A stretch of 64,000 nt of DNA from Sphingomonas sp. Its GTDB lineage: Bacteria > Pseudomonadota > Alphaproteobacteria > Sphingomonadales > Sphingomonadaceae. The number at the start of each line of letters is the position of its first letter. The first letter of the stretch is position 1. The translations under genes and the position numbers were made by a program. The notes below the pieces were generated by a model. The model searched no databases. It saw only the letters and a program-made list of their open reading frames with translations, and was not told where the DNA came from. The stretch spans positions 31,485-95,484 of the forward strand of contig NZ_JACCSU010000018.1 in NCBI RefSeq assembly GCF_013812825.1, in the 5' to 3' direction. Below are positions 5,989 through 58,498 of the stretch, piece by piece.

Positions 5989-6075
5989 AGCGAAAGAAAC
6001 CGCTTTCCTACAGTGTTCCAGATAGGTTAAACACCGGCGCGATTCGAAACTGTTGGCGGTTCGTGGCGGCGCCGG

Positions 6076-6134
6076 CCCCTCCACCATTCGCTCTTTGGCG
6101 AATGGTCCCCCTCCCCTCGAATGGAGGGGCGGAG
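6076..6134 (+). repeat. Double-hairpin dispersed repeat, copy 1 (CCCCTCCACCA-hairpin-GGTCCCCCTCCCC-hairpin-GGGG)
   Basis: cccctccaccattcgctctttggcgaatggtccccctcccctcgaatggaggggcggag. Confidence 0.75.
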
Positions 6135-7146: not shown

Positions 7147-7182
7147 GACCCGCTTCGCTCGAAGCAGTACTTTGAGCAAGGA

Positions 7183-7242
7183 CCCCTCCACCATCCTGCG
7201 GATGGTCCCCCTCCCCCCGAAGCAAAGCTCCGCGGGGAGGAA
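7183..7242 (+). repeat. Double-hairpin dispersed repeat, copy 2
   Basis: cccctccaccatcctgcggatggtccccctccccccgaagcaaagctccgcggggaggaa. Confidence 0.75.
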
Positions 7243-26930: not shown

Positions 26931-29900
26931 CCTGCGCTCCCGTAGCCGCCGCCGCCGGGCGTTTCGATGACGAATGAGTCGCCGGGCCCTACCTCGGCCG
27001 AGCCCGTGGCTTGAAGCATCTCGATGCTGCCGTCGGAGCGCTCGACCCAGTTGCGGCCGGGCAAGGCGTCGCCGCCGCCGGCGAGGCCGCGCGGCGCAAT
27101 CCGGCGGCGGTTGGCGAGGATGTTGGCGCGCATCGGCTCCAGGAAGGTGACTCGGCGGACGACTCCGTTGCCGCCGCGGTGGGCGCCGTCACCGCCCGAG
27201 CCGCGGCGGATGGCGAACTCGTCGAGCCGAACCGGCAGCCGCGTTTCGAGGATCTCGGGGTCGGTCAGCCGGCTGTTGGTCATGTGCGTCTGCACCGCGT
27301 CGGTTCCGTCATGGTCGGGCCCGGCGCCCGAGCCGCCGGCGATGGTCTCATAATATTGGTGCGCGTCGTTGCCGAAGGTGAAATTGTTCATTGTCCCCTG
27401 GCTCGGCGCGAGCCGTCCGGTGGCGGCGAACAAGGCGTCGGTGACCGCCTGGCTGGTCTCGACATTGCCGGCGACCACCGCCGCCGGGAACTCCGGGCTG
27501 AGCATCGAGGAGTCGGGGACGACCAAGCGGATCGGCCGCAGGCAGCCGTCGTTCATCGGGATCGAATCGTCGATCAGGGTGCGCGAGACGTAGAGCGAGG
27601 CCGCCCGGACGATCGAGAAGGGGGCGTTGAAATTGTCGCTTTGCTGGGCGCTGGTGCCGGTGAAATCGAACGTCGCCGAGCGCGCCTTTCGGTCGATCGA
27701 GATCGCGACCTGGATTCGGGCGCCATTGTCCATCTCGTAATCGAATGCGCCGTCATCGAGCCGGTCGAGGAGCCGGCGCACCGATTCCTCAGCGTTGGCG
27801 AGGACATGGCCCATGTAGGCCGCGACAACGTCGGCGCCGTAATCGCGTACGGTTTCGACCAGCGCTTCGGCGCCGCGCACGCAGGCGGCGAGCTGGGCGC
27901 GAAGGTCGGACAGATTGCGGTCGGGCTTGCGCGCCGGATAGGGGCCCGAGGTCAGAAGCGCCCGCGTTTCGGCTTCGAGGAAGCGGCCCTCGTCGACCAG
28001 CAGCGCGTTGTCGATCAGCACGCCTTCCTCGCCGATGGTCCGGCTGTCGGGCGGCATCGAGCCGGGGGTGATCCCGCCGACGTCGGCGTGGTGGCCGCGC
28101 GCGGCGACGAACGCCGAAGGAGCGCTGGCGGAGTCGTCGTAGAACACCGGGACGATGACGGTGATGTCGGGCAAATGGGTGCCGCCGCGGTACGGGTCGT
28201 TGAGCACATAGGCGTCGCCGCGGCGGATTCCGCGGCCATCGCGAGCGCCTCCGTCGGCATCCGGTCCGCGGCTGTCGATGATGGTTTTGATGCTCTCGCC
28301 CATCGAGCCCAAATGGACCGGGATGTGCGGAGCGTTGGCGATCAGCGCTCCGCCGGCATCGAACAAGGCGCAGGAGAAATCGAGCCGCTCCTTGATGTTG
28401 ACCGAGGTCGCGGTCGATTGCAGCGCGACGCCCATTTCCTCGGCGATCGCCATGAACAGATTGTTGAAGATCTCGAGCCGCACCGGATCGACCGCGGTTC
28501 CGACCGCGTGGGCGCGCGTGGCGGCCGTGGTTCGGGTGAGGACCAGCGTTCCGTCATCGGCCCGAGTCGCGCTCCAGCCCGGTTCGATCACCGTGGTCGA
28601 GGTCGAGTCGAAGATCAGTGCGGGGCCGTGGAGCTCCTCCCCGGGACGGGGAGGGGAAGTGGCCGAAGGATGGGGAAGGGGGTTGTTCGCCTGGCTCGCC
28701 GCCCCCTCCACCACTGAATCTTCGTTCAGCGGTCCCCCTCCCCGTTCCGGGGAGGAGACCGCTTCGACCACCAGCGCGTCGACGATCGGCTCACTGCCTT
28801 CGACGTAGCCGAAGCGGCGGCGGTGCAGCTCGTCGAATGTCTCGCGCATCGCGGCGGGAGGGGCCAGGTCGAGCTCGAACGCGGTGTCGCTGCCGGGAGT
28901 GCGCAGCCGCGCCCGGCGGTGGAGCTCGATGCGCTCGGGATCGAGGCCCTGCTCGGTGAGCGCATCGCGCGCCGCGGCCTCGAGCGTGCTCAGCCCATTC
29001 GAAAAATCTTCGCTCAGCGGCTTCAGCCAGCTCTGCTCGCGAATCGCCTTCACCGGCGCGAGTCCGATTCCATACGCCGACAGCACTCCGGCGAGCGGGT
29101 GGATCAGGATCCGCTCCATGCCGAGCGCGTCGGCGACCCGGCACGCGTGCTGGCCGCCGGCGCCTCCGAAGCAGGCGAGCGCGTAGCGGGAAACGTCATG
29201 GCCGCGGGCGATCGAGATCTTGCGGATCGCCGCGGCCATATTGTCGACGGCGATCTCGAGGAAACCCTCGGCGATTTCTTCCAGGCTTTTGGCGTTGCCG
29301 AGCGCATCGGCGACCTCCTCGAGCCTCGCGCGCGACTCCTCGGGGTCGAGCGGTTGATCTCCGTTGGGGCCGAACACCGCCGGGAAGCGCCCGGGCACGA
29401 TCCGGCCGAGGAACAGGTTGCAGTCGGTAACGGTCAGCGGACCCCCGTTTCGGTAGCAGGCCGGGCCGGGACGGGCTCCGGCCGACTGCGGCCCGACGCG
29501 GAAGCGCATCCCGTCGAACCGGCAGATCGAGCCGCCGCCGGCAGCGACGGTATGGATCTGCATCATCGGCGCTCGGATCCGGACTCCGGCGACGACGCTC
29601 TCGTCGACCAGCTCGAAGCGGCCGGCGTAATGCGACACGTCGGTCGAGGTGCCGCCCATGTCGAAGCCGATCAGGAGCTGCTGCCCCTTGGCGCCGCCGT
29701 GGGCGGCGCTCGCCGCGACCATCCCGACCACTCCGCCGGCCGGGCCCGACAGGATCGCGTCCTTGCCGCGGAACGAGCGCGCTTCCGCGAGCCCGCCGTT
29801 CGACTGCATGAAATGGAGGCCGGCGCCGTCGCCAAGCCCGGCCGCGACGCGCTCGACATAGCGGCGCAGCACCGGCGACAGATAGGCGTCGACGACGGTC

Positions 29901-49693: not shown

Positions 49694-51022
49694 ATGAAGC
49701 GGATCAAGACTAGGATTGCAGTGTTGGTGATTGCGGCGATCGCCGCGAGCGGCTGCGGAGTCTTCAAGAAGGGAGCGCCCAAGACGCCGGTGCTCGGCCA
49801 GCGCGTCGCGGTTCTGACCAGCGAGACCGACGTCACGGCCGATCCGGCGACCGCCGCGCTGCCGATGGTGCTTCCGGCGCCGGTCGCCAATAGCGAGTGG
49901 GCGCAGTCGGGCGGCAACGCAGCCAAGGCGATGGGCCATGTCGCTCTGGGAACCGCGCTTGCCCGGACGTTCTCGGTGTCGATCGGTCACGGCAGCAGCT
50001 TGACCGCGCGGCTCGCATCGCCGCCGGTGGTCGGCGGCGGCCGGGTCTATACGATCGACACCAATGCGACGGTGCGGGCGTTCGATGCCCAGACCGGCGG
50101 CCAGGCCTGGGCGAGCCAGTTCGGTTTCGAGCGGGGCAACAGCGCATCGCTGTTCGGCGGCGGAGTCGCCTTTGCCAACGGCCGGGTCTACGCGACCAAC
50201 GGCCTCGGCTTCGTCGCCGCGCTCGACGCGCGCAATGGCGGGGTCATCTGGCAGGTCCGCCCGGGCGGGCCGCTGCGCGGCGCTCCGACGGTCTCCGGCG
50301 ACACGCTCTACGTGATCAGCCAGGACAACCAGATCTATTCGCTCAAGACGTCCGACGGGACGACCAACTGGTCGAACGCCGCGGCGCTCGAGATCGCCGG
50401 AGTGTTCGGCACCGGCTCGCCGGCCGTCGCTCAAGGGACCGTGGTCGCCGGCTTCTCATCGGGTGAGCTCAACGCCTACCGCTACGAAAACGGCCGGCTG
50501 GTGTGGCAGGACGCGCTCGCCCGGACCAGCATCCGGACCAGCGTCGCCTCCTTGTCCGACATCGACGCCAACGCGGTGATCGACAGCGGCCAGGTATTCG
50601 CGATCGGCCAGGGCGGGCGGATGGTCGCGCTCGAGCTCAACAGCGGCCAGCGGATGTGGGAACTGAACATCGCCGGAATTGCGAGCCCGTGGGTCGCGGG
50701 CGACTGGCTGTTCGTCGTCACCGACGACGCCAAGCTGATCGCCGTCGCGCGCACCAGCGGCAAGGTGCGGTGGATCAACCAGCTGCCGCGGTTCGAGCGC
50801 GAGAAGAACAAGCGCGGCCAGATCACCTATCGCGGGCCGGTGCTCGCCGGCGGCCGGCTGATCCTGGTCGGCTCCAACGGGGCGCTGATCAATTTCGACC
50901 CGGTGACCGGTAATTTCCAGAGCCAGACGACGATCGGATCCCCGGTCACGCTCGGGCCGGTGGTCGCCAATTCGACGCTCTACGTGCTCGACGACGCAGG
51001 CCGGCTGCACGCGTTCCGCTGA
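49694..51022 (+). CDS. bamB: Outer membrane assembly beta-propeller (PQQ-like repeat) lipoprotein
   Basis: Lipobox AASGCG; repeated TIDTNATVRAFDAQTGGQAWA-type beta-propeller blades; neighbour of der. Confidence 0.9.
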   Translation: MKRIKTRIAVLVIAAIAASGCGVFKKGAPKTPVLGQRVAVLTSETDVTADPATAALPMVLPAPVANSEWAQSGGNAAKAMGHVALGTALARTFSVSIGHGSSLTARLASPPVVGGGRVYTIDTNATVRAFDAQTGGQAWASQFGFERGNSASLFGGGVAFANGRVYATNGLGFVAALDARNGGVIWQVRPGGPLRGAPTVSGDTLYVISQDNQIYSLKTSDGTTNWSNAAALEIAGVFGTGSPAVAQGTVVAGFSSGELNAYRYENGRLVWQDALARTSIRTSVASLSDIDANAVIDSGQVFAIGQGGRMVALELNSGQRMWELNIAGIASPWVAGDWLFVVTDDAKLIAVARTSGKVRWINQLPRFEREKNKRGQITYRGPVLAGGRLILVGSNGALINFDPVTGNFQSQTTIGSPVTLGPVVANSTLYVLDDAGRLHAFR

Positions 51023-51028
51023 GCTTTA

Positions 51029-51170
51029 CCCCTCTCCCCTTGAGGGAGAGGGAGGAGCCGCGAAGCGGTGGAGGGTGAGGGGCTCTCCGTCGCGCGACTA
51101 CCCCTCCCAACTCCGGCTAAGCTCCTTCGTCGCTAAGCCTTCGTAACCCTCTCCCTCAAGGGGAGAGGGA
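51029..51170. repeat. Inverted-pair intergenic repeat between bamB and der
   Basis: Outer arms cccctctccccttgagggagaggga ... accctctccctcaaggggagaggga. Confidence 0.75.
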
Positions 51171-55372: not shown

Positions 55373-55780
55373 TCAGCGCTCGGACTTGCGGATCACCAGC
55401 TTGAGGCCCGACCAGGTCGAGTCGACCGCGCAGACCTTGACGTCGACCAGCCCGAGCGGGAGCGCGACGTCGCGGATTACGTCCTCGCTGATGTCGGTCG
55501 CGACCTTGGCGGCTTTCCTCGGCCAGCTGACCCAGACGAAGCCGTCACGGGCGAGCAGCGGCAGCAGCAGGCGCAGCTCGCACTCGAGCACCGCGCGCCT
55601 GGTGACGAAGATGTGCGCCGCCTCGATCGGCGACTCGGGCGCATCGAGCCGGACGAGCGCCGGTGCGTCGCGCTCGATCTCGGCGCGGACGCCATCCGGC
55701 ATCCCGCACCACCAGGTGCGAAGCCCCGGCTCGAGGCTCAGCTTCCGAGCGAGCGGGGTTCCGGAGTAACCGGCGGTCAA
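55373..55780 (-). CDS. DUF3052 family protein (TTG start)
   Basis: TAGYSGTPLARKLSLEPGLRTWWCGMP...DAPESPIEAAHIFVTRRAVLE; start overlaps the DUF559 stop. Confidence 0.78.
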   Translation of the reverse strand: MTAGYSGTPLARKLSLEPGLRTWWCGMPDGVRAEIERDAPALVRLDAPESPIEAAHIFVTRRAVLECELRLLLPLLARDGFVWVSWPRKAAKVATDISEDVIRDVALPLGLVDVKVCAVDSTWSGLKLVIRKSER

Positions 55781-56196
55781 GTTGTCTCCTCCCCGGCACG
55801 GGGAGGGGGACCATCCGGCGCAGCCGGATGGTGGTGGGGATTGCTCCGTTCGATGCAAGCGGCGATGATCCATTCGATGGCTTGGTCGGCCGAGCGCGCG
55901 ATATCCGCCGCGGGGATGCGCAGCGTCGCAACTTCGCGAGCCTCTAGCCACCGATCGCGGGCTTCGCCGCGCGCCGGCCCATCGCCCATATCGTGGGAAA
56001 TGCCGTCGACCTCGATCGCGAGTCGGGCCTCGGAGCAAAAGAAATCGAGCACATATTGCCCGGCCGGATGCTGGCGGCGGAACTTGAAGCCACTGGGCTT
56101 ACGCCGAAGGCGGTGCCACAGGATCACCTCGGGCGCGGTCATCGTGCGGCGCAGCTTGCGCGCCTTTTTCACCGTCATCTTTGGGCCGCAGAGCAT
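55777..56196 (-). CDS. DUF559 domain-containing (Vsr-like) endonuclease
   Basis: RRTMTAPEVILWHRLRRKPSGFKFRRQHPAGQYVLDFFCSEARLAIEVDGISHD; C-terminal PHHHPAAPDGPPPRAGEETT is encoded by the repeat. Confidence 0.9.
   Translation of the reverse strand: MLCGPKMTVKKARKLRRTMTAPEVILWHRLRRKPSGFKFRRQHPAGQYVLDFFCSEARLAIEVDGISHDMGDGPARGEARDRWLEAREVATLRIPAADIARSADQAIEWIIAACIERSNPHHHPAAPDGPPPRAGEETT
55785..55840 (-). repeat. Double-hairpin dispersed repeat, copy 4 left arm
   Basis: Reverse complement tccccaccaccatccggctgcgccggatggtccccctccccgtgccggggaggaga. Confidence 0.8.
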
Positions 56197-56204
56197 GGAG
56201 CCAT

Positions 56205-56259
56205 CCCCTCCACCATGCTTCGCACGGTCCCCCTCCCCGAGACAAGCTCGGGGAGGAGA
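56205..56259 (+). repeat. Double-hairpin dispersed repeat, copy 4 right arm
   Basis: cccctccaccatgcttcgcacggtccccctccccgagacaagctcggggaggaga. Confidence 0.8.
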
Positions 56260-56260
56260 G

Positions 56261-58498
<2,238 letters not shown>

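Follow-up and report, generated by a model that had tools for sequence, protein, structure and literature searches.

DUF559 nuclease genes lie between inverted triplex-code repeats and may spread BoxC/PIT/triplex repeats

A DUF559 unit beside purL

In the window, the whole 64-kb stretch of Sphingomonas sp. DNA that was analysed, a 475-bp unit (55785-56259) lies between purL and its downstream neighbour. It begins with TCTCCTCCCCG, ends with CGGGGAGGAGA, and holds DUF559 as its sole ORF. The termini are perfect 11-bp inverted repeats, and the inner parts of the unit are inverted repeats as well; the 3' end of the ORF runs through the left arm, with its stop codon at 55777-55779. These features, and the related repeats found elsewhere in the window, are as follows.

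55373..55780, minus strand: downstream neighbour of purL ("DUF3052" in a first-pass annotation), TTG start 5 bp from the unit
55777..56196, minus strand: DUF559 (Vsr/EDxHD-like nuclease) ORF, 139 aa, catalytic-type residues conserved
55785..55840, plus strand: left arm, hairpin CCTCCCCG-GCA-CGGGGAGG, second hairpin ATCCGGC..GCCGGAT, inward tail GGTGGGG
56205..56259, minus strand: right arm, inverted copy, hairpin CCTCCCCGAG..CTCGGGGAGG, second hairpin, inward tail GGAGGGG
56261..58498, minus strand: purL, upstream neighbour, intact, stop codon 1 bp from the unit
6060..6130, minus strand: type-A repeat copy, GGGGAGGGGGACC core at 6104-6116
7180..7240, minus strand: type-A repeat copy, core at 7204-7216
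28634..28757, no strand given: ORF-less doublet of the same repeat type in inverted orientation, MITE/REPIN-like
51030..51081, plus strand: another triplex-code repeat, CCCTCTCCC.. with tail GGGTGAGGG; a further CCCTCTCCC hairpin about 70 bp on

Most of this layout had been claimed by the first-pass annotation, and its claims on the length, the inverted ends, the sole ORF, the inner parts as inverted copies of one dispersed repeat, and the positions of the right end (1 bp from the purL stop codon) and the left end (inside the DUF559 3' end) all held, with coordinates in agreement. The name DUF3052 was not supported, as a Pfam search with the downstream neighbour returned no match at E ≤ 0.001; the gene is nevertheless conserved beside purL, which it abuts or overlaps in relatives that lack the unit.

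Both arms of the unit are double hairpins, with z-scores of −4.6 and −4.2 for the fold. A strict triplex-element finder reported 4 elements in the 64-kb window versus 0 in 10 Markov shuffles, and the two arms account for 2 of the 4 (55788-55839, plus strand; 56205-56256, minus strand). The 13-nt core GGGGAGGGGGACC is present in 19 copies in this genome, against 0 for the reversed control, and an Rfam search of the unit region gave no match. Separately, two triplex-type hairpins of a type different from that of the purL unit stand together between two genes at 51020-51170.

The ORF matches DUF559 (PF04480) at E = 3e-24, with 85.3 bits against a curated cut-off of 20.6. Only DUF559 and MTES_1575 matched in a Pfam scan to E = 1; Vsr (PF03852) had no match to the ORF in that scan, nor any in this genome. 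DUF559 is under purifying selection with its catalytic residues kept: across about 237 units, the columns equivalent to E17, D45, E56, D58, and H62 are at least 98% conserved, a stop falls within the domain in 2/237, and dN/dS ranges from 0.03 to 0.26 in the 15 computable pairs (one pair was saturated). Profile searches retrieved the DUF559-like structure 3hrl (E = 3e-34) and the homing endonuclease I-Bth0305I (3r3p, E = 0.003). A DUF559 protein of Caulobacter, VsrA, is a proposed mismatch-repair nuclease; in the absence of a cytosine methyltransferase it triggers a DNA-damage response (PMC12907096), which is consistent with nuclease activity.

DUF559 genes enclosed by matching triplex-code arms

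This genome (G000, 2.45 Mb) has four DUF559 genes, and all four lie between inverted hairpin repeats. The two arms of any one gene share a type, which is that of the purL unit at two genes and other types at the remaining two. DUF559 is present in 54/61 sampled genomes of the family, 38/96 of the class, and 37/120 of the phylum. Flanking inverted repeats exceeded the 99th percentile of offset windows at 65/82 DUF559 loci, and the inverted-repeat score reached 15 at 65/77 named loci from alpha-, beta-, gamma-, and deltaproteobacteria and others (one of these 65, L229, is an N-run and is to be discounted). After merging and de-duplication, 201/237 units were enclosed, leaving about 15% without clear enclosure. 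In the controls, a score of 15 was reached by 0.4% of 451 offset windows and by 6/325 ordinary genes (1.8%; one genome only, 400 kb of G072), and none of 27 Vsr genes was enclosed. We therefore rejected enclosure as a general property of Vsr genes. The three counts come from overlapping data sets, orthologous loci within them are non-independent, and the threshold was set after the controls were seen; the collection scan used a closer protein set, a diverse 20-protein alignment being too variable. These comparisons show that the arrangement is real and general, and that it extends across several bacterial phyla.

The E. coli member of the family, ycjD, is found in 3,363/5,426 complete genomes (~62%). 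In E. coli H15 (L405, sapF-ycjD-fabI), intact and decayed copies of the triplex motif (TM) lie on the 3' side of ycjD only, and TM number 9 in the published table, placed at 29 minutes (PMC4666352), has the same sequence as the copy beside ycjD. In Neisseria gonorrhoeae (L140), triplex-type repeats around a DUF559 gene close to PDB 3hrl are direct and not inverted.

Arms are alike within a locus and unlike between loci; they vary between units of one genome yet track the DUF559 subfamily across genera. The closest DUF559 also had the closest arms in 235/396 cross-genome comparisons, versus 127 ± 12 after permutation (maximum 164, 500 permutations), and the within-genome Mantel value between DUF559 and arms was 0.42 versus 0.13 ± 0.08. 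Part of this signal may be co-inheritance, because gene and arms are physically linked. An independent line comes from the dispersed repeats: of the genomes that have a subfamily-A DUF559, 22/26 contain the type-A core, versus 9/35 of those that do not (Fisher 6e-6). Four genomes have a subfamily-A DUF559 without the type-A 13-mer, and some genomes rich in type-A repeats lack the enzyme, such as G012 with 108 core copies; there, the enzyme may have been lost, or another may serve the repeats.

Each arm consists of a C-rich/G-rich hairpin, often a second hairpin, and then an inward purine tail whose sequence is the mirror image of the 3' strand of the same hairpin: G of the strand is met by G in the tail, and A by A or T. 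Such pairing is the established antiparallel purine-motif triplex code. The tail matched its own stem perfectly in 81% of 290 arms versus 14.4 ± 1.9% when tails were swapped between units; for asymmetric stems, the mirror reading fits 202/250 and the direct reading 35/250. Among unique matches, interior tail bases opposite A were A in 220 cases, T in 146, G in 1, and C in 1. Of 233 units, 147 carry inward elements on both sides and 24 carry outward elements on both sides. On Deinococcus plasmids (L412, L413), related triplex-type elements on both sides of DUF559 have outward tails, opposite to most proteobacterial units.

Because the tails follow this code, the repeats can be identified as the known intrastrand-triplex elements BoxC, PIT, and TM. 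These motifs of the same architecture were described as abundant in >260 genomes, including 23 copies in E. coli K-12, were linked to instability, and were found without mobile-element association; the triplex was shown in vitro, for the E. coli motif only (Holder et al. 2015, PMC4666352). Hairpin and code-matching third strand place our arms in this superfamily, a membership that the first-pass annotation had overlooked together with the code; three-stranded folding of these particular arms is a prediction. The text of PMC4666352 does not mention DUF559, endonuclease, or ycjD.

Units as mobile DNA

Comparison between relatives shows that the units behave as mobile DNA, with insertion polymorphism. 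The purL site is empty in three relatives (G322, G309, and G270), where purL and the next gene overlap or abut, and G297 has a similar unit after purL. G047 carries three near-identical units in differing surroundings plus one internally deleted copy; in two relatives, one of these sites (L349) is unoccupied, although a second dispersed repeat is also part of the extra DNA there. Within the genus to which G218 belongs, a single intergenic place (L128) is vacant in five genomes, while four hold one DUF559/arm type there, three hold another type, and three hold ORF-less repeats. The full unit of G218 at L129 corresponds to an ORF-less doublet in G199, with flanks 88-95% identical (up to 97% elsewhere between the two genomes).

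Target-site duplication was not enriched over mismatched pairs (3.16 vs 3.05 ± 0.07), and a possible TGAC duplication at the purL site is a single case only; classical transposition is therefore not shown. At the right flank of L127 and L120, the start of the neighbouring reading frame is seemingly duplicated (~50 bp) beside the unit, possibly a trace of an insertion or repair event, and in G199 this DUF559 is interrupted by an internal stop. Strains of E. coli that lack ycjD (~38%) were considered as empty sites and set aside as not clean, since another operon lies upstream of fabI in the strains examined.

The first-pass annotation had proposed a mobile repeat driven by DUF559, to be refuted if DUF559 genes in relatives lacked such repeats, if repeats were unrelated between strains, or if no empty purL sites existed. 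Each test favoured it: such repeats do accompany DUF559 genes in relatives, the arms are matching and specific to each unit, and empty purL sites exist. The comparison for target duplication that it had suggested detected none. Its proposal is thus supported by comparison, cleavage by the enzyme not being among the evidence; its analogy to REP/RAYT layouts held, although the enzyme itself is not a RAYT. As to its view that a DUF559-driven version was undescribed, we found no study tying DUF559 to BoxC/PIT/triplex repeats within the open-licence literature searched.

Interpretation and likeness to known systems

Since the arrangement recurs around most DUF559 genes across several phyla, we suggest that DUF559 spreads BoxC/PIT/triplex repeats. 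The reading we consider likely is that of a system resembling RAYT/REP, in which a Vsr/EDxHD-type nuclease acts on triplex-forming ends. The purL unit would be a single copy of a mobile element, widespread and roughly 450-550 bp long, in which a DUF559 (Vsr/EDxHD-type PD-(D/E)xK) nuclease gene lies between two inverted triplex-forming BoxC/PIT/TM repeats, and ORF-less doublets and scattered single repeats would be its non-autonomous relatives, as REPINs are to RAYTs. In the likely mechanism, the nuclease would recognise arms of its own type in single-stranded or extruded form, as a hairpin with the tail folded back as third strand, and would nick or break the DNA there. Replication or recombination repair would then put a copy at a new intergenic location, either of the whole unit or of a doublet with its interior deleted, or would alternatively convert an existing doublet. 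The data show the association and its specificity, covariation by the triplex code, copies at several sites, sites that are empty, conserved catalytic residues, and purifying selection; cutting of the arms by DUF559 and the copying route are inferred, without biochemistry.

The strongest rival is of the homing type, and we lean modestly against it. Here, DUF559 would be an EDxHD homing endonuclease, free-standing, whose cuts fall in repeat doublets already present, and break repair would copy its gene into them with the arms as homology; the repeats would be targets of the enzyme and not transposon ends. In its favour, the nearest characterised relative by profile is I-Bth0305I, the L128 place holds two DUF559/arm types and doublets in related genomes, the full unit and the doublet at L129 give a comparative hint, and no target duplication is seen. 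Against it, units also occupy places that are repeat-free in relatives (purL; L349), and a doublet is equally explicable as a deletion product, as the internally deleted copy in G047 illustrates. Homing into doublets remains a possible alternative for the copying step.

It is unlikely that DUF559 is a passenger, that is, a cellular Vsr-like repair nuclease, with a different enzyme, for example a RAYT or TIRYT, moving the repeats around it. The genetic link between Caulobacter VsrA and a solitary cytosine methyltransferase (PMC12907096) speaks for this view. However, no Y1_Tnp (PF01797) gene is present in this genome, in G044 with its 85 core copies, or in G047, which has recent copies; true Vsr genes are not enclosed (0/27); and a passenger leaves unexplained the multi-copy units, the code, and the presence of several units per genome with subfamily-specific arms. 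Y1_Tnp genes occur in 13/61 genomes of the family, and those examined in relatives lack these ends, on which grounds mobilisation by Y1_Tnp/RAYT was rejected. Some sphingomonad Y1_Tnp genes (L365-L374) have different flanking repeats of the GGGGACRCAATAC type, which recall published TIRYT ends.

That the hairpins are ordinary terminators or mRNA-stability elements flanking a small gene by chance is very improbable: they are GC-rich, intergenic, and stably folding, but ordinary genes of one genome are seldom enclosed, whole units duplicate in multiple copies, and stem and tail covary according to a triplex code, while purine-motif triplexes do not form in RNA according to PMC4666352.

Returning to the preferred RAYT/REP-like reading, its bolder form holds that the units are a new class of prokaryotic mobile element, in which a Vsr/EDxHD-type nuclease recognises an intramolecular DNA triplex as the element end and so spreads the BoxC/PIT/TM superfamily across bacteria. 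We regard this form as no better than evenly balanced. If true, RAYT/REP would have a counterpart that works without an HUH enzyme, and DNA triplexes would have a natural enzyme that reads them. Although BoxC/PIT/triplex repeats have been on record since the 1990s, they have had no known origin or enzyme, and the common family DUF559 has had no known function; the link offers the repeats a candidate mobiliser and the family a candidate function, and it makes a biological role of intrastrand DNA triplexes directly testable.

Among known systems, REP/REPIN-RAYT (TnpA_REP) shares a small enzyme gene with inverted palindromic repeats on either side, further dispersed copies of these repeats, ORF-less doublets, and several repeat families per genome with one enzyme each. 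It differs in that RAYT is an HUH tyrosine transposase and not a PD-(D/E)xK Vsr/EDxHD-type nuclease, and in that REP ends are GTAG-tagged hairpins whereas the ends of DUF559 units obey the triplex code. The BoxC/PIT/TM repeats (PMC4666352) have the same architecture and consensus (CCCTCNCCC..GGGNGAGGG..GGGNGAGGG) and are likewise dispersed, intergenic, sometimes in inverted doublets, and tied to genome instability, but they were described without a mobile element or a dedicated enzyme.

I-Bth0305I (PDB 3r3p) shows weak profile similarity over the catalytic region and may share the logic of a selfish gene spread by cutting; it belongs to a mobile group I intron, whereas DUF559 units have no intron and have triplex repeats at both ends and dispersed ORF-less copies. 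Vsr and Caulobacter VsrA belong to the same broad fold family, and VsrA has a DUF559 domain and causes DNA damage in some conditions (PMC12907096), but PF03852 Vsr genes are not enclosed by these repeats (0/27). Finally, MITEs are short, ORF-less inverted-repeat elements like the doublets described here, as are the rhizobial mosaic elements (RIME); unlike either, the doublets share their ends with a DUF559 nuclease element and not with a known transposon.
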